Assembly: GCF_000819865.1 (NCBI RefSeq)
Contig: NZ_CDDF01000005.1
Location: 108,924-172,923, forward strand
DNA from: Aeromonas eucrenophila
GTDB taxonomy: Bacteria > Pseudomonadota > Gammaproteobacteria > Enterobacterales > Aeromonadaceae
Direction: 5' to 3'
DNA length: 64,000 nt
Shown: positions 9,465 through 15,043 of the stretch, piece by piece
Layout: every line of letters begins with the position of its first letter
Position numbering within the stretch: position 1 is the first letter of the stretch
The notes under the pieces: model-generated
Told to the model about the DNA's origin: nothing
Databases searched by the model: none
The model's input: the letters and a program-made list of their open reading frames with translations, nothing else
Translations under genes and position numbers: made by a program

Positions 9465-10004
9465 CTACTGATTGCCTGGCAGGTCACTGCGCAAGATGGC
9501 GTATTGGTGCAGGGAGATGAAGCCACCGGCCTTGATTTCGCACTCCCGCGCCGTGCCTTCATAGTGAAAACCGGCCCGCTCGAGCAGGCGCGCCGAGGGG
9601 GTATTGGGCTCCTCGACCACCGCCAGCAGTCGATGCAGATCCGTGGTGTGGTAGATCAGGGCCAGCGCCTGCCGCAGGGCCTCGCCCATGATCCCCTTGC
9701 CCCAGTATTCGGGATAGAGCCAGTAGCCGAGCTCGGCGCACTTGTGGCGCGGGTCGGCGTCGTTGTAGCCGATGGCCCCCATTGGCTCATGGGTATCCGG
9801 GTTGCGGATCAGGAACCAGGCGCCGCTGCCGGTCCGGGTTATTTCGGCGTACCAGTCCATCTGTTCCTCGCAGGCCGCGAGGCTGTGGTAACTGACGCCG
9901 TAGTAGGCGATGACGTCGGGATCCGACAGGCCGCGATAGATGTGGATCAGATCGCTGGCCTGGATGGGGCTTAGCTTCAGGGTCGCCGTTGATGGGTGTG
10001 ACAT
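9465..10004 (-). CDS. GNAT N-acetyltransferase (RimJ/RimL-like)
   Basis: A 179-aa acetyl-CoA-dependent acetyltransferase of the Acetyltransf_3 type. Visible features are the beta4 segment MGAIGYNDADPRHKCAELGY, the acetyl-CoA loop PEYWGKGIMGEALR (Q/RxxGxG-like, residues ~98-111) and the C-terminal NTPSARLLERAGFHYEG motif. RimJ-like members modify ribosomal protein N-termini, but many acetylate other amines, so the substrate is open. It lies 66 bp downstream of the ABC-F gene on the same strand and may be expressed with it. Confidence 0.85.
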   Translation of the reverse strand: MSHPSTATLKLSPIQASDLIHIYRGLSDPDVIAYYGVSYHSLAACEEQMDWYAEITRTGSGAWFLIRNPDTHEPMGAIGYNDADPRHKCAELGYWLYPEYWGKGIMGEALRQALALIYHTTDLHRLLAVVEEPNTPSARLLERAGFHYEGTARECEIKAGGFISLHQYAILRSDLPGNQ

Positions 10005-10070
10005 GGGTGTCTCCTGGCGGCCACTGCTGGCCGCCTTGGGTTAATGGGGTAGATGGAACGGGTGGGGGGA

Positions 10071-11801
10071 TCAGCACTCGTTGAGGCCAAGATGCGCGGT
10101 AAGCTGGTGCAATTCGTCGCGCCATACCTGTTGCAGTCTTGGAGTCTGGTGCTTGGGCCTGCGGGCGAGATCGGCGGCCAGCAAGGCCTCCAGCTCATAC
10201 CAGCGCGCCAGCTGCGCCTCTTCGTCATCCCCGGCCCCGCTCGGCTGCTCGGCGGCCGCGTCGGGCGAATCGCTCACCTTGTCCTCTTCTTGCGTGCCGA
10301 GCAGTTCGGCATAGGCCCGCTCGGCGCTGTGCGCCTCGTGGATCCACCCGTCTCGTATCAGCCAGAAGCGGTTGCAACTGCGCTCGATCAGATCCCGGTC
10401 GTGGGAGATCAGCAAGACCCCGCCGGCAAACTGAAGCAGGGCCTCGGCCAGCTCCTCCTTGCCCTCCAGATCCAGGTGGTTGGTGGGCTCATCGAGCCAG
10501 AGCAGATGATGATTGGCCAGCGACAGGGCGAGAAACAGCAGTCTGGCCCGCTCGCCACCACTCAAGGCCTGCACCTGCTGGCCGTGCCTGGAGTAGGGGA
10601 AGCCCGCGCGGATCAAGGCCTGGCGCAGCGTCACCCCCGGCAGGGGTGCCAGGGAGTAGAGGGCGTCGGTCAGGCTGGCGCCATCGTCGAGCTGCTGCAG
10701 GGCCTGATCGTAGTAGGCGATGCTGGCACCGGGGTGGTGGTACCAGCCCTCGGGTGGCACTTGCTCGCAAAGCTCGCGCCAGCACTGGCGCAGCAGAGAG
10801 GACTTGCCCGTGCCGTTGGCGCCGAGCAAGGCGACCCTGTCCCCCGAGCGGAGCCTGAGCCCCTCGGCTCGCAGCAAGGGGGGCAGTCCGGGGGCCGGAC
10901 GCACCTCGAGCGCCTCCAGCCGCAGCAGGGCGTCGGCTTGCAGCCCCAGCCCGTGCAGCTCGAGCCGCCAGGGGGCACCGGCGCCAACCTGGCTCTGCTC
11001 CTCCTGCAGCCGGACGATGCGTTTCTCCATGGACTTGGCCTGGCGCACCAGCTTCTCGTTGTCGTGCTCCCGCCCCCAGATGGCGAGCCGCTTGCTGCTG
11101 GCACTCAGTCTGTCTATCTCCTTCTGCTCGTCGGCCCGGCGCTGGCGGGCATTGTCGTCCTCCTCGGCCAGCGCCACCCTGGCCTGACTGCAGGGCAGGG
11201 CGAAACGATAGAGCCGCCTGTCCCGCAGGATGAGGGTGTCGCTGGTCACCCGATCGAGCAGACGAGCGTCGTGGGAGACCAGCACCAGGGCGCCGCGCCA
11301 GCCCAGCAGGAAGCGCTCGAGCCAGAGCAGGGAGGGCAGATCCAGGTGGTTGCTGGGCTCGTCGAGCAGCAGCAGGTTGGGTTGGCGCAGCAGGGCGCGC
11401 CCTATCTGCAAGCGGCTGTGCTGGCCACCGCTCAGGGCACTGACCGGCACTGCCGCCTGTTCGCTCAGTTGCAGTTCGGTCAGCATCTTGTCCACCTGCC
11501 AGTCTAGGCCGGGGTCGAATGCCAGGGTTTCTGCCAGCACGTCGCGGGTACTGAGTGTCTGCAACTGCGCGGGCAGATGCTGGGACACGAACTCGCAGCG
11601 GCAGGGGGCGGCTCTGTGTATGCGTCCGTCATGGGGCGGGATCTGGCCGGCCAGCAGGGCGAGCAGGGTGCTCTTGCCACTGCCATTGGCGCCGATGAGG
11701 CCGATGCGATCGCCGCTCTGGATGCTGAGTTCGAGGCCGTCGAATAAGGGAAGGTGTCCTGCAGTCATCTGCAGGGAGTGGGTACTCATCAGGGTTGTCA
11801 T
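10071..11801 (-). CDS. ABC-F family ATPase, probable ribosome-acting (translation/antibiotic protection) factor
   Basis: A 576-aa soluble protein with two ABC domains in tandem and no membrane segments. Walker A GANGSGKS (residues ~37-44), signature ALSGGQHSRLQ, Walker B LLLDEPSNHLD and SHD switch form ABC1. A ~70-residue charged linker (EEDDNARQRRADEQKEID onward) follows. ABC2 has GANGTGKS, LSGGERARLL and LWLDEPTNHLD. The long arm insertion of EttA is not evident, and the C-terminus carries an acidic plus helical extension of ~75 residues. ABC-F proteins enter the ribosomal E site; some give drug resistance. The upstream leader peptide and RBS-masking helix suggest induction by ribosome stalling. 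It is not clearly Uup, EttA, YbiT or YheS. Confidence 0.88.
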   Translation of the reverse strand: MTTLMSTHSLQMTAGHLPLFDGLELSIQSGDRIGLIGANGSGKSTLLALLAGQIPPHDGRIHRAAPCRCEFVSQHLPAQLQTLSTRDVLAETLAFDPGLDWQVDKMLTELQLSEQAAVPVSALSGGQHSRLQIGRALLRQPNLLLLDEPSNHLDLPSLLWLERFLLGWRGALVLVSHDARLLDRVTSDTLILRDRRLYRFALPCSQARVALAEEDDNARQRRADEQKEIDRLSASSKRLAIWGREHDNEKLVRQAKSMEKRIVRLQEEQSQVGAGAPWRLELHGLGLQADALLRLEALEVRPAPGLPPLLRAEGLRLRSGDRVALLGANGTGKSSLLRQCWRELCEQVPPEGWYHHPGASIAYYDQALQQLDDGASLTDALYSLAPLPGVTLRQALIRAGFPYSRHGQQVQALSGGERARLLFLALSLANHHLLWLDEPTNHLDLEGKEELAEALLQFAGGVLLISHDRDLIERSCNRFWLIRDGWIHEAHSAERAYAELLGTQEEDKVSDSPDAAAEQPSGAGDDEEAQLARWYELEALLAADLARRPKHQTPRLQQVWRDELHQLTAHLGLNEC

Positions 11802-12030
11802 GCTCTTGCTCTCTTAAATCACGGGATCGGAGATCCCTGTCATCAGGAGCGCTGGCGACAACGGTCGAGAAAGGTCTCGGTTTGAAAGGAGTCGGCTTTG
11901 CTCGAACCCGCTATCGCAGCGCGATGGTGTGCAGGCAAGAGCACTCGAATGTGCCGAACAGGCGGGCCGAGAACATCGGACACGCTTGGATAACCATTTT
12001 TTACCTCCTTGTGTTTCGTTATGGCAATGT
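11802..12030 (-). promoter_or_regulatory. Structured mRNA leader, candidate translational attenuator of the ABC-F gene
   Basis: The mRNA leader of ~230 nt contains a 28-codon ORF (11911-11997) with an ideal Shine-Dalgarno site. Its codons 19-21 (TGCTCTTGC, plus-strand 11935-11943) are perfectly complementary to GCAAGAGCA, which ends in the A of the ABC-F start codon (plus-strand 11801-11809). Pairing would cover the weak AGAGAG ribosome site and the start. A second hairpin GGGATC-TCC-GATCCC lies at 11823-11837. No U-run follows any hairpin, so control would be translational rather than by termination. This is inference from sequence; no expression data. Confidence 0.7.
11911..11997 (-). CDS. 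Leader peptide (28 aa) upstream of ABC-F gene
   Basis: ATG 11997 is preceded by AAGGAGG with 5-6 nt spacing, the strongest ribosome site in the neighbourhood. The 28-residue product begins MVIQACPMF, has Cys-Ser-Cys at 19-21 and ends with TIALR then TAG. It is not a signal peptide. Size, position ~110 nt ahead of an ABC-F gene, and complementarity of codons 19-21 to the downstream start region all fit a regulatory leader peptide whose translation senses ribosome-targeting compounds. I do not recognise the peptide sequence. Confidence 0.7.
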   Translation of the reverse strand: MVIQACPMFSARLFGTFECSCLHTIALR

Positions 12031-12036
12031 GCGGCG

Positions 12037-12065
12037 ATTATAGGCGGAGAAAAAATAGCCGTCTA
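12037..12065 (-). promoter_or_regulatory. Sigma-70 promoter of ABC-F leader transcript
   Basis: Perfect -10 TATAAT (12037-12042) and TAGACG as -35 (12060-12065) with 17-bp spacing. Predicted transcription start is near 12030, about 20 nt ahead of the leader-peptide ribosome site. Confidence 0.75.
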
Positions 12066-12141
12066 TCGAGGGATGGGGGGGTATCGGGTTGTGATGAGGG
12101 GATCTGGTCGTGAAAAGGAGCCTTCATCGCGGCCGCCGGAA

Positions 12142-12172
12142 AAACAAGAGCCCCGCGGGGCGGGGCTCTTTT
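12142..12172. terminator. Intrinsic terminator downstream of pliI
   Basis: Stem AAGAGCCCCGC / GCGGGGCTCTT with T-rich sequence on both sides; it ends the minus-strand pliI transcript. Confidence 0.85.
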
Positions 12173-12187
12173 CGCAGCGGTGCGGGA

Positions 12188-12625
12188 TCAGTCGCGCGGG
12201 GTCTTGAGCGCCTGGATTAGGTCCTCGCCCGGGGCCAGTCCCTCCACATGGTTGAAGCTGTCGAGCCCCTCCTGTGGGTTGATGGTGAAGGCATCGGCGC
12301 TGCGATAGCTGCCGCTGCCGGCGCTCTCGACGATGACGATGAGCTCGGGCTGTTTGTCACCGTTGAGATCCTGCAGCTTCAGCTCCTTGATGCTGCCATC
12401 CCGCGGCAGCACCTTGCCGTCGATGAACTGATCGAGGGGAAACTCGGGGTTGGCACCGGAGTAGAGGCGCACGTCGTAGCTGCCGGTGGAGGCAGGCTCG
12501 CCGCGCCCTTCGCTGACGGTGATCACCTGGCCGGAGGGCAGCGTCAGCTGTTTGAAGAGACCGTCCGCCGCTTGTGTGGTCAGTGGCAGGCTAAGCAGAC
12601 CGAGAGTAATAAATAAGGCTTTCAT
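12188..12625 (-). CDS. pliI: Periplasmic inhibitor of i-type (invertebrate) lysozyme, PliI
   Basis: Secreted 145-aa protein with a classic signal peptide (MKALFITLGLLSLPLTTQA, cleavage before ADG), acting in the periplasm. The loop SAGSGSY at residues 101-107 gives Ser104 and Tyr107. As I recall, these are the positions important in the PliI protein of Aeromonas hydrophila, where the loop enters the lysozyme active site. The start is set at ATG 12625 from the signal peptide; 40 upstream in-frame residues run through a hairpin and are rejected. It would protect the cell against i-type lysozymes of invertebrate hosts. An MliC-type inhibitor is also in this window (45943-46302). Confidence 0.78.
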   Translation of the reverse strand: MKALFITLGLLSLPLTTQAADGLFKQLTLPSGQVITVSEGRGEPASTGSYDVRLYSGANPEFPLDQFIDGKVLPRDGSIKELKLQDLNGDKQPELIVIVESAGSGSYRSADAFTINPQEGLDSFNHVEGLAPGEDLIQALKTPRD

Positions 12626-12653
12626 GGATGTGACCCTTGTTGCTGCTATTGAT

Positions 12654-12674
12654 GGCGGGGACTGGGTCCCCGCC
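12654..12674. repeat. Perfect hairpin in pliI-pepO intergenic region
   Basis: GGCGGGGAC and GTCCCCGCC are 9-bp arms with a 3-nt loop. There is no T-run on either side, so this is not a standard terminator. It lies in the pliI 5' region or the M13 peptidase 3' region and may stabilise the mRNA end. Confidence 0.5.
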
Positions 12675-12738
12675 GTATACCGGCCCTCGACAGGGACGCC
12701 GACAGCCTCTGCTGAGCCGCGCCTTGTCGAGTGCCTCA

Positions 12739-14772
12739 TTACCATATCTTGACTCGCTTGGCCGGGTCCAGATAGAGCTTGTCACCCGGCTGTATGTTGA
12801 ACGCCTCATAGAAGGCGGGGATGTTCGGCACCACGCCGTTGACCCGGTATTCGGGCGGGGAGTGGGGATCCGAGGAGAGCAGCATCTGCATCAGCTCGGG
12901 TCTGTACATTCCCTTCCACACCTGGGCCCAGCCGAGGAAGAAGCGCTGCTCGCCGGTGAAGCCGTCAAGCACCGGGGCCTCCTTGCCATCGAGGGACAGC
13001 AGGTAGGCCTTGTGGGCTATGGTGAGGCCGCCGAGATCGCCGATGTTTTCCCCCAGGGTAAACTGGCCGTTGACGTACTGACCCTTGATGGGCTCGAAGC
13101 GGTTGTACTGGGCCACCAGCCGGCTGGTACGGAAGCGGAATTCCTTGAGATCCTGCGGCGTCCACCAGTCGCGCATCAGACCGTTGCCGTCTGACTTGGC
13201 CCCCTGATCGTCGAAGCCGTGGCCCATCTCGTGGCCTATCACCCCGCCGATGGCGCCGTAGTTGACCGCATCATCCGCCGTCATGTCGAAGAAGGGCGGC
13301 TGCAGTATGGCGGCCGGGAACACTATCTCGTTGTTGCTCGGGTTGTAGTAGGCATTCACCGTCTGCGGCGACATGTGCCACTCATCCCTGTCTACCGGCT
13401 TGCCGAGGCGCGCCAGGTTGTCGGCATATTCGAAGGCGCGGGCCCGCTGCAGGTTGCCCATCAGATCATCGGGCCGGATCTCGATGGCGCTGTAATCCTT
13501 CCACTTGTCCGGGTAGCCGATCTTGGGCCTGAACTTGGCCAGTTTTTCCAGCGCCTGGGCCTTGGTGGCCGGCGACATCCAGTCCAGCTCCTGGATGCTC
13601 TGGCCGTAGGCGGTGCGCAGGTTCTCCACCAGCTGCTCCATGCGGGCCTTGGCCTCTGGCGGGAAGTAGCGCTCCACGTAGAGCTGGCCGACCGCTTCGC
13701 CCAGGTTGTTGTCCAGCACGCCGAGGGCGCGCTCCCAGGGGGCCCGCTGCTTGGGAGTGCCGCTCAGGGTGGTGCCGTAGAAGGCGAAGTTCTGGGCATC
13801 GGTCTGGCTGTCGAGATAGGGGGCGTAATCGGTGATGAGGTGCCACTTGAGGTAGGCTTGCCAGTCACCGATCGGGGTTTGGCGCATCAGGCCATCCAGG
13901 GCCGTCAGGTAGCTCGGCTGACCGATGACCAGGCTGCTTTGATCGGCGAGGCCGGCCTGGTTGAGATAGGCGTCCCAGTCGATGCTGGGGGAGAGGCGTT
14001 TGAGCTCGCTCACCGGCCCCTTGTTGTAGTTCTTCTCCCGATCCCGCAGGGCCACGTTGTCCCACTGGATGCGGGCGATCTGGGTCTCGAGGGCCAGGAT
14101 GCGCTTGGCCTTGGCCCCCGCATTCACCTCGCCGAAGCGGCTCAGCATGGCGGTGATATGCTGTTCGTATTTCTGGCGCAGGGCCTCACTGGCCGCATCC
14201 GTCTTGAGGTAATAGTCCCTGTCCGGCAGGCCGAGACCGGATTGAGAGAGGTAGACCGCATAGCTGTCCGGCGCCTTGGCGTCGGCGCCTATCCAGAAAC
14301 CGAAGGGGGCATCACCGCCGGTGCGACCGGCCTGGGCGAAGGCCCTGGCCAGCGCACTCTTGTCGCGGATCTGGTCGATGTCGCCGAGCAGGGGCAGCAG
14401 CGGGGCCGAGCCTCTGGCATCCCGGGTCCCCTGATCCAGATAGCTCCGGTAGAGATCGTGGATCTGCTGGGCCGGGGTGCCGGGGGCTGCCGACTTGCCG
14501 TCCAGCCCCTCCACCAGCACGCGTACATCGGCCAGGGATTTGTCCCGCAGCATGTAGAAGGCGCCGTCGGCGGGCCTGTCGTCCGGGATCTTGGCGGTGC
14601 CGAGCCAGTGGCCGTTCACGTAGCGGAAGAAGTCGTCGCCGGGTTTGACCTTGGTATCCATGTTGGCCAGCGCGAGGCCGGAATGCTTGTTGCCGTTGTC
14701 CGGTGCCTGACTACAACCGGCCAGCAGGGCCAGCCCGATGAGGCCAGCCAGTATGCTCTTCTTATTGTTCAT
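12739..14772 (-). CDS. pepO: M13 family zinc metallopeptidase lipoprotein (PepO/neprilysin-like)
   Basis: A 677-aa endopeptidase exported as a lipoprotein: hydrophobic signal ending LLAGC with the lipidated Cys near residue 20. The zinc site HEMGH lies in GGVIGHEMGHGFDDQGAKSDGNG around residue 512, and the family NAYYNPSNNEIVFPAAIL segment lies about 45 residues earlier. The N-terminal Peptidase_M13_N domain begins at KVKPGDDFFRYVNGHW. It ends in KRVKIW, close to the family C-terminal CxxW-type ending but without the Cys. Start ATG 14772 is preferred over an upstream TTG. Probable role: periplasmic or surface oligopeptide cleavage. Not operonic with pliI by any clear sign (113-bp gap). Confidence 0.9.
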   Translation of the reverse strand: MNNKKSILAGLIGLALLAGCSQAPDNGNKHSGLALANMDTKVKPGDDFFRYVNGHWLGTAKIPDDRPADGAFYMLRDKSLADVRVLVEGLDGKSAAPGTPAQQIHDLYRSYLDQGTRDARGSAPLLPLLGDIDQIRDKSALARAFAQAGRTGGDAPFGFWIGADAKAPDSYAVYLSQSGLGLPDRDYYLKTDAASEALRQKYEQHITAMLSRFGEVNAGAKAKRILALETQIARIQWDNVALRDREKNYNKGPVSELKRLSPSIDWDAYLNQAGLADQSSLVIGQPSYLTALDGLMRQTPIGDWQAYLKWHLITDYAPYLDSQTDAQNFAFYGTTLSGTPKQRAPWERALGVLDNNLGEAVGQLYVERYFPPEAKARMEQLVENLRTAYGQSIQELDWMSPATKAQALEKLAKFRPKIGYPDKWKDYSAIEIRPDDLMGNLQRARAFEYADNLARLGKPVDRDEWHMSPQTVNAYYNPSNNEIVFPAAILQPPFFDMTADDAVNYGAIGGVIGHEMGHGFDDQGAKSDGNGLMRDWWTPQDLKEFRFRTSRLVAQYNRFEPIKGQYVNGQFTLGENIGDLGGLTIAHKAYLLSLDGKEAPVLDGFTGEQRFFLGWAQVWKGMYRPELMQMLLSSDPHSPPEYRVNGVVPNIPAFYEAFNIQPGDKLYLDPAKRVKIW

Positions 14773-15043
14773 TCTGCTTGATTCCAATTCGGGTTATTCA
14801 GTTTCCCTGGCATGCCGGGAGGAGGCTCACTCTAGCAGCCGGATCGGGGCTTGATAAGCCCGACGCCGCCAGGCACTCGCCTCTGGTGTGCGATCAGGCC
14901 CTGCTCCGGGTGAAGGCACCGCTCGGAATTCTCCCTTATTGGTATAAACTCCGGTGCCTGTGGGGATCGAAAGCGGGTTGACGATCTCCCGTGATCGTTC
15001 GTGAGCAGGGGCCAGGTTCGGCCCGGCTATGTTGGGGAAGCCA

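Follow-up and report, generated by a model that had tools for sequence, protein, structure and literature searches.

A conserved leader reading frame and two mutually exclusive RNA folds suggest a translational attenuator upstream of a proteobacterial ABC-F gene

We analyzed a 64,000-nt stretch of the Aeromonas eucrenophila genome (contig NZ_CDDF01000005.1, positions 108,924 to 172,923; hereafter, the window), in which a gene for an ABC-F ATPase of 576 amino acids, probably of the PAF1 subfamily (10071..11801), is preceded by a short leader open reading frame (ORF). Comparison with orthologous loci shows, at the level of sequence, that the leader is conserved, that the RNA arms co-evolve between clades and can form either of two folds that exclude each other, and that the element is located in front of this gene only. 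This element is probably a translational attenuator that senses ribosome arrest upstream of the ABC-F gene: it combines a cis-encoded leader with its own Shine-Dalgarno (SD) sequence, a leader arm (arm 1) that pairs with the start of the downstream gene, and an alternative pairing of arm 1 with a second arm (1:2) that would free this start. In folding calculations, a ribosome positioned in mid-leader is computed to lower the cost of opening the ABC-F start. We infer that ribosomes would indeed halt at about codons 15-20, that a ribosome-acting antibiotic would be the usual cause, and that the ABC-F protein would then protect the ribosome.

All features of the element lie on the minus strand of the window. 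A sigma-70-like promoter (TAGACG-17 nt-TATAAT, 12037..12065) is followed by the leader SD (AAGGAGG, 12004..12010) and the leader ORF (11911..11997), which opens with an ATG at 11997, encodes the 28-amino-acid peptide MVIQACPMFSARLFGTFECSCLHTIALR, and terminates with a TAG codon at 11913..11911, 109 nt from the ABC-F ATG (11801). The promoter search yielded one match in this region vs a shuffle mean of 0.2; TATAAT is retained in 21 of the 23 Aeromonas orthologues, and GGAG occupies the SD position in all 62 orthologues described below. Arm 1 (UGCUCUUGC, 11935..11943) consists of leader codons 19-21 (TGC TCT TGC, 11943..11935) and is fully complementary over 9 nt to arm 4 (GCAAGAGCA, 11801..11809), whose last base is the A of the ABC-F AUG. 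The initial annotation of this DNA had reported the promoter, the AAGGAGG-ATG, the 28-codon ORF, a spacer of about 110 nt, and the perfect 9-nt complementarity, and all of these proved accurate; perfect complements of at least 9 nt between leader and start region appeared in 18 of 4000 shuffles. The leader RNA of the window also folds more stably than most shuffled versions (z -2.51; 5 of 200 equally stable).

Two further helices and a competing partner for arm 1 complete the arrangement. Arm 2, directly past the leader stop (11896..11908), can pair either with arm 1 or with arm 3 (CUUUCUCGA, 11865..11873), and helix L joins the leader end and stop (GCGCUGCGAUAGCGG, 11908..11922) to the middle of the spacer (CCGUUGUCGCCAGCGC, 11849..11864; placed by alignment folds and pair counts). 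Helices L and 2:3 are nested inside 1:4, so that the three make up one long rod; the rival fold comprises 1:2, a small apical hairpin over the leader end (AUCG/CGAU, 11925..11913), and local hairpins downstream. In the OFF state that we propose, arm 1 would pair with arm 4 and thereby mask the ribosome site and start of the ABC-F gene, with L and 2:3 stacked within. A ribosome halted at about codons 15-20 would cover arm 1 and release arm 4, allowing translation of the ABC-F gene, whereas a ribosome at the leader stop would cover arm 2, with arm 1 exposed in its wake and the start still closed. Until transcription reaches arm 4, arm 1 would be paired with arm 2.

The leader and the gene occur together. 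Among 61 genomes searched, 37 of them Aeromonas, a close ABC-F orthologue (72-100% identity) was present in 23 of the 37 Aeromonas genomes; the 256-base upstream region, used as a DNA query, gave a strong match in the same 23; its best match in the remaining 14, from which the gene and the element are jointly absent, did not surpass E 0.019. The leader precedes all 23 Aeromonas orthologues, with 28 amino acids and a nearly invariant sequence. The 54 orthologues examined first consist of these 23, one from Burkholderia lata (the sole useful locus of 80 from a generic ABC-motif contig scan), and 30 others, of which six come from Klebsiella, Photobacterium, Rahnella, Morganella, Ewingella, and Pantoea (50-52% ABC-F identity) and 24 from a set of 345 genomes sampled evenly across the order (48-54%). 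By likeness, and with labels of our own, we split these 30 into group V (Photobacterium and six others) and group E (the remaining 23), which may include other vibrios, Vibrio THAF64 being closest to a group E member. A leader of 26-28 codons behind a GGAG-bearing SD was found in all 54 (31/31 outside Aeromonas), with the leader stop 104-138 nt upstream of the gene in the non-Aeromonas orthologues. Three distant homologues (36-39% identity; L200-L202) had no comparable leader and were excluded from all leader statistics.

As hold-outs, we used 8 named records among 40 plasmid-collection records with E<=1e-100, examined after a covariance model of the element had been built; six of the 85 records from the earlier homologue search had already been used, and a fragmented match in Pseudomonas silvicola was left out. 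All eight carry the leader, so that an SD and an open frame of 26-28 codons are present in 62 of 62 orthologues, two of the hold-out leaders (Vibrio campbellii, Aeromonas caviae) being identical to already known ones (that of V. campbellii to a group V leader). The initial annotation would have been refuted by orthologues lacking the leader or the pairing, and it withstood this check: the leader is present in 23/23 Aeromonas orthologues, 31/31 relatives outside the genus, and 8/8 hold-outs. The element is no peculiarity of Aeromonas. The covariance model detected all eight hold-outs at E 2.5e-14 or better and, in the 345 genomes, gave 37 strong matches, one per genome and each directly before the ABC-F gene; the 37 genomes concerned are precisely those whose ABC-F orthologue reaches 48% identity or more. 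The model was built from these or near-identical sequences, so the informative part of this result is the absence of other strong copies: 4 further matches in the 345 genomes were at noise level (E 5e-4 to 0.009), as were one extra match in the own genome and, beyond it, the only 2 in 369 genomes of the class. The 3 genomes with only a distant homologue gave no strong match, and L200-L202 no significant one (a single minus-strand match in L201 had E 0.28).

Conservation of the spacer exceeds that of silent sites in the gene. In 8 of the 22 other Aeromonas orthologues, each compared with the window as reference, spacer conservation was 0.86-0.99 vs 0.62-0.91 at ABC-F fourfold-degenerate sites; for 80 upstream bases, it was 0.17-0.66 in 7 pairs and 0.84 in one. 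We calculated the ratio of nonsynonymous to synonymous differences (pN/pS) for the Aeromonas leaders, 18 non-Aeromonas leaders of 27 amino acids, and 7 group V leaders. In Aeromonas (n=23; codons 2 to end-11), pN/pS was 0.15 in frame vs 2.13 and 1.48 off-frame, and in group V 0.45 vs at least 0.95, which, together with the SD and the frame, suggests that the leader is translated. These results bear on the possibility that the conserved block is a structured 5' untranslated region, that is, a stability element or protein site in which the ORF is incidental. Such an element would account for the group E leaders, where in-frame selection was not detected, and for the C-terminal I(A/V)LR of the peptide, which RNA pairing can explain: in one locus (L196), a compensatory AUUG/CAAU keeps the hairpin while altering an amino acid, and for this reason we prefer RNA pairing to peptide selection as the cause of the conserved end. 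We nevertheless regard an incidental ORF as very unlikely, given the SD and open frame in 62/62 orthologues, the in-frame constraint in Aeromonas and group V, and the location of arm 1 inside the ORF (roughly codons end-10 to end-6), so that any ribosome translating the leader has to traverse it.

The leader peptides themselves diverge strongly between clades, whereas their position and the RNA arms are kept. Their residue bias differs as well, toward Cys in the Aeromonas leaders, Arg in those of group V, and Ser in those of group E; for lack of a shared amino-acid run, we reject amino-acid attenuation. Setting aside residues encoded in paired RNA (Ser at -8 and the I(A/V)LR end), we found one motif common to the clades, which spans positions -17 to -13 relative to the C-terminus and reads [A/P/S]-[mostly R/H]-x-[F/Y/L]-[mostly G/S] (A-R-L-F-G, codons 11-15, in Aeromonas); it sits just before or at the start of the predicted stall window and is a candidate arrest motif. 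Divergent peptides on a conserved cis-RNA geometry, and an element found as a single strong copy in each genome and invariably in front of this gene, argue against a leader peptide acting in trans as a small protein; the peptide peTrpL of Sinorhizobium is a known trans-acting leader peptide (PMC7298713, available text), but a role of this kind here is scarcely credible. The same divergence would suit a switch of identical construction that responds not to drugs but to translation stress in general, such as a shortage of amino acids, slowed elongation, or assembly defects, as would the prediction that a halt at many codons of the stall window would act. In E. coli, drugs from several unrelated classes act on the toiL upstream ORF (uORF), which is proposed to serve as a readout of slow ribosomes, as described in the available text of PMC12121999. 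We consider such a signal unlikely, since no amino acid is consistently enriched in the leaders across clades and the gene is patchy within the genus (23/37), as resistance ABC-Fs tend to be (PMC6723617, available text).

Unguided RNAalifold predictions returned both folds, the 1:2 fold from the 30 non-Aeromonas sequences and the 1:4/L/2:3 rod from Aeromonas plus Burkholderia. Pairing and covariation were evaluated in an alignment of 30 non-Aeromonas rows without Burkholderia (A2) and in one of 44 of the 54 sequences after ten near-identical rows had been dropped (A4). Helices L and 2:3 are paired in 95.6% of cells (98.9% for helix L over the 44 sequences), with 26 double-sided changes vs 9.6 in shuffles and covariation above all 500 shuffles. 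For helix 1:2 plus the apical hairpin, the values are 91.3% and 9 double-sided changes vs 2.0, with covariation likewise above the shuffles. One 2:3 pair covaries across the 44 rows, being A-U in 15/15 Aeromonas and Burkholderia rows vs G-C in 24/29 others; adjoining it, the helix keeps a 1x1 mismatch (A4 columns 49/106; C opposite C or U in 40/44, paired in 1/44). The start-pairing arms change on both sides between clades: CUCUUGC with GCAAGAG in Aeromonas and Burkholderia, CUCAAG with CUUGAG in most of group E, and CUCAGG with CCUGAG in Rahnella aceris. Arm 1 binds its own arm 4 at -16.6 kcal/mol vs -12.6 when swapped (group E alone, -16.1 vs -13.8), with 0/5000 permutations equally stable in both cases, and its own arm 2 at -14.8 vs -12.1 (0/5000; group E alone, 11/5000), in permutations that ignore relatedness and with helix models drawn up from these same sequences. 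Taken across all clades, both the 1:4 and the 1:2 arms co-evolve. The arm covariation put forward as a check in the initial annotation is thus seen between clades and is not demonstrable within Aeromonas, where the arms are nearly invariant; its attenuator reading gains partial support from sequence and folding but has to accommodate a rival partner for the leader arm and two further helices.

In simulations of growing transcripts, 1:2 forms first (P >0.8 in 52/54 when cut after arm 2) and later, in Aeromonas and Burkholderia, gives way to L, 2:3, and 1:4; in groups V and E, the folds end up nearly balanced. For ribosome-free RNA at equilibrium, the pairing probability P exceeds 0.5 for 1:2 in 17/54 sequences and for 1:4 in 35/54. 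We then modelled a stalled ribosome by masking a footprint of -14 to +16 around the P site, refolding the RNA, and computing the cost of opening the ABC-F start. In Aeromonas, this cost was 10.1 kcal/mol without a ribosome, 6.2 at codons 15 and 18 (end-13 and end-10), and 10.6 at the last codon; in Burkholderia, it was 11.7, 6.0 at end-11, and 11.6, respectively. The corresponding values were 7.1, 3.9-5.0 (end-13 to end-3), and 8.9 in group V and 7.8, 5.5-5.8 (end-13 to end-5), and 9.0 in group E. For the window sequence itself, the cost fell from 9.3 in the absence of a ribosome to 7.8-8.1 at codons 16-17 and to its minimum of 4.6 at codons 18 and 19. The mean cost with the ribosome at end-13..end-6 was lower than without one in 46/54 sequences (by at least 1 kcal/mol in 38), lower than at early codons in 49/54, and lower than at the stop in 51/54. 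These calculations predict a stall window of about codons 15-20. With the ribosome at end-10, 1:4 is gone in 54/54 as a consequence of the mask itself. With a mid-leader ribosome, the start region becomes more often unpaired in group V (mean probability 0.42-0.51 vs 0.37 without one) and in group E (0.49-0.53 vs 0.40). A stall at the leader stop is not favoured as the ON trigger, as the cost there lies above the no-ribosome value in three clade means and equals it within 0.1 in Burkholderia.

Besides the relatedness that the permutations ignore, several results weigh against an attenuator of this design. In group E, pN/pS of the 27-amino-acid leaders gives no sign of in-frame selection (0.72 vs 0.75 and 1.05). 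Helix 1:4 alone does not covary beyond chance in the 30 non-Aeromonas rows (0.103 vs 0.102 in shuffles; 198/500). In the group V swap test, the own 1:4 duplex had no advantage over swapped ones, and the leader arms of this group bind their own start regions (-14.1) less well than those of group E (-16.7); in 3 of the 8 hold-outs (Proteus and two Pantoea), too, the own 1:4 duplex is weaker than swapped. The 1:2 pairing, for its part, carries two mismatches in 14/15 Aeromonas and Burkholderia rows. As for the ribosome model, a mid-leader ribosome gives no mean lowering in 8/54 sequences, and the Aeromonas dip is ragged (9.5 at end-11, 10.0 at end-7). The start-region unpaired probability does not rise in Aeromonas (0.39 without a ribosome, 0.30-0.48 at end-14..end-6), implying that other pairings partly take over.

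A doubtful extension of the attenuator model is a two-input switch, in which a drug-induced stall at the leader start (arm 1 held by arm 2, as in the nascent transcript) and one in mid-leader (arm 1 covered) would both free the ABC-F start. No less speculatively, the OFF fold would then be established only by ribosomes that complete the leader, moving off arm 1 and occupying arm 2. If true, the leader would report that elongation was completed, and this readout would explain why the peptide drifts while leader length and RNA arms are kept. The early formation of 1:2 in 52/54 truncated transcripts favours a switch with two inputs, as does the rise of P(1:4) with a ribosome at the stop from 0.48 to 0.73 in group E and from 0.41 to 0.61 in group V. 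Against it stand the Aeromonas sequences, where P(1:4) falls from 0.91 to 0.46 with a ribosome at the stop and remains 0.96 upon an early stall at codon 5.

The output could also be read at the level of mRNA: blocked translation of the ABC-F gene may lead to early, Rho-dependent termination inside the gene or otherwise affect transcript stability. In the window, the stretch from promoter to gene yielded no intrinsic terminator, the one terminator-like site lying upstream of the promoter; this rules out attenuation by a terminator between leader and gene and leaves room for Rho; in E. coli, topAI, which is under toiL control, acts through Rho (PMC12121999, available text). We regard this as a real but somewhat less than even prospect, compatible with translational attenuation as a second layer.

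The identity of the ABC-F gene is the other part of the argument. The best NCBIfam model, 'ribosomal protection-like ABC-F', scores 299 bits, below its cut-off of 380 (309 and 300 bits for the Klebsiella and Burkholderia homologues), and the closest solved structure by sequence is YheS (193 bits). Murina et al. 2019 (PMC6723617), in the available text, describe PAF1 as a predicted novel group of resistance ABC-Fs from Proteobacteria, present in Vibrio, Enterobacter, Klebsiella, Serratia, and Citrobacter but not Escherichia, and resistance ABC-Fs as tending to be patchily distributed. Our gene has named relatives in Vibrio, Klebsiella, Proteus, Pantoea, Rahnella, Morganella, and Photobacterium, is patchy within its genus, and, as the Klebsiella copy, has no DNA match by blastn in an E. 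coli collection of 20,395 records, a search that a strongly diverged copy would escape. On these grounds it probably belongs to PAF1, by distribution and within-genus patchiness rather than by tree position; that it confers resistance is a prediction made for the subfamily (PMC6723617, available text). The interdomain linker (residues 235-255) is among the best-conserved stretches of the protein (A5 alignment), with S235, S236, R238, W242, D247, R253, and A255 unchanged across 52 sequences; such conservation would suit contact with an unvarying partner, for instance the peptidyl-transferase centre.

In erm-type attenuators, a leader ORF with a strong SD precedes RNA that hides the downstream start, and an arrested ribosome frees that start. 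One example of such translational attenuation by an arrested leader ribosome is ermC (PMC10219788, available text). The present element shares with ermC/ErmCL the strong-SD leader, the RNA-hidden start, and the proposed release by an arrested ribosome; unlike there, the start is paired with arm 1 of the leader itself, at the base of a long rod, a competing partner lies past the leader stop, and the target is an ABC-F ATPase rather than a methyltransferase. From the available text of PMC12121999, toiL-topAI of E. coli appears to be the nearest Gram-negative parallel, in which uORF RNA hides a ribosome site and relief by a stalled ribosome is proposed, but with a different gene and peptide and a pairing that spans the length of the uORF, not a short window with a competing fold. 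Antibiotic-responsive uORFs before antibiotic resistance ABC-F genes are described for vmlR, cplR, vga(A), msrD, are5sc, and tiaA, a response that is predicted for our element; cplR and vmlR are under translational control, and tiaA is constitutive in transcriptional reporters. These known uORFs are mostly very short (MRI, MIN, MLV; MVGDDDISG for tiaA), often with start-codon stalling and a transcription terminator, and come from Gram-positive hosts (PMC10201436, PMC12421871, PMC9226507, PMC10314930, all as far as their available text goes), whereas ours has 26-28 codons, no terminator found, and proteobacterial hosts.

The PAF1 description likewise concerns Proteobacteria, with Vibrio and Klebsiella among the genera, and the word 'leader' does not occur in its main text (Murina et al. 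2019, PMC6723617). Brewer et al. 2021 (PMC8632094) describe similar structured uORF elements, one of them before hflX, and in the available text name no motif before an ABC-F gene and mention neither 'Aeromonas' nor 'ABC transporter'. Among the matches listed in the open-access literature, which covers few subscription journals and preprints, neither this leader nor any other is described for a proteobacterial ABC-F. Rfam has no match, either up to E 1 in window positions 10000-15000 or up to E 0.1 at 9 related loci, and a known Rfam RNA is thereby ruled out. We judge the element to be a known principle in a form previously undescribed as far as the open-access literature shows.

The element provides a testable regulatory circuit for an ABC-F subfamily so far known as a predicted resistance factor, with relatives in Klebsiella, Vibrio, Proteus, Pantoea, and Aeromonas. 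If only stalled ribosomes lift the silencing of the gene, it could escape routine surveys of susceptibility and expression; the leader indicates the condition under which to look, making the protection target of the subfamily directly answerable. Moreover, with 62 natural variants, the element can serve as a comparative model of a ribosome-operated bistable RNA.

Several other features of these loci were observed. Hairpin III (GGGAU..AUCCC, 11823..11837) lies between helix L and arm 4, with 75.3% of cells paired in the 30 non-Aeromonas rows and variants GGGAC..GUCCC in Burkholderia and GGCAU..AUGCC in Klebsiella and others. The same 30-row RNAalifold prediction pairs the leader SD (GGAGG) with the arm-3 pyrimidine tract (A2 columns 11-15 with 173-177), and leader translation may itself be gated in this way, outside the proposed model. 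A terminator-like strong hairpin with a T run, directly upstream of the promoter (12146..12170, minus strand), probably ends the neighbouring gene. Downstream, on the same strand, a GNAT acetyltransferase gene (Pfam Acetyltransf_3, 9465..10004) begins 66 nt past the ABC-F stop; a homologue (57-100% identity) lies within the 1.5-kb flank at 19/23 Aeromonas loci and 0/24 scanned non-Aeromonas loci, and in Aeromonas this gene may share the switch with the ABC-F gene. Finally, the Morganella morganii locus (NZ_CP070536.1, 50,644 bases, filed as a plasmid and typed as non-mobilizable) carries the ABC-F gene with its leader next to two acetyltransferase genes and ada/alkB, in a record that could be mobile or a misfiled piece of chromosome.

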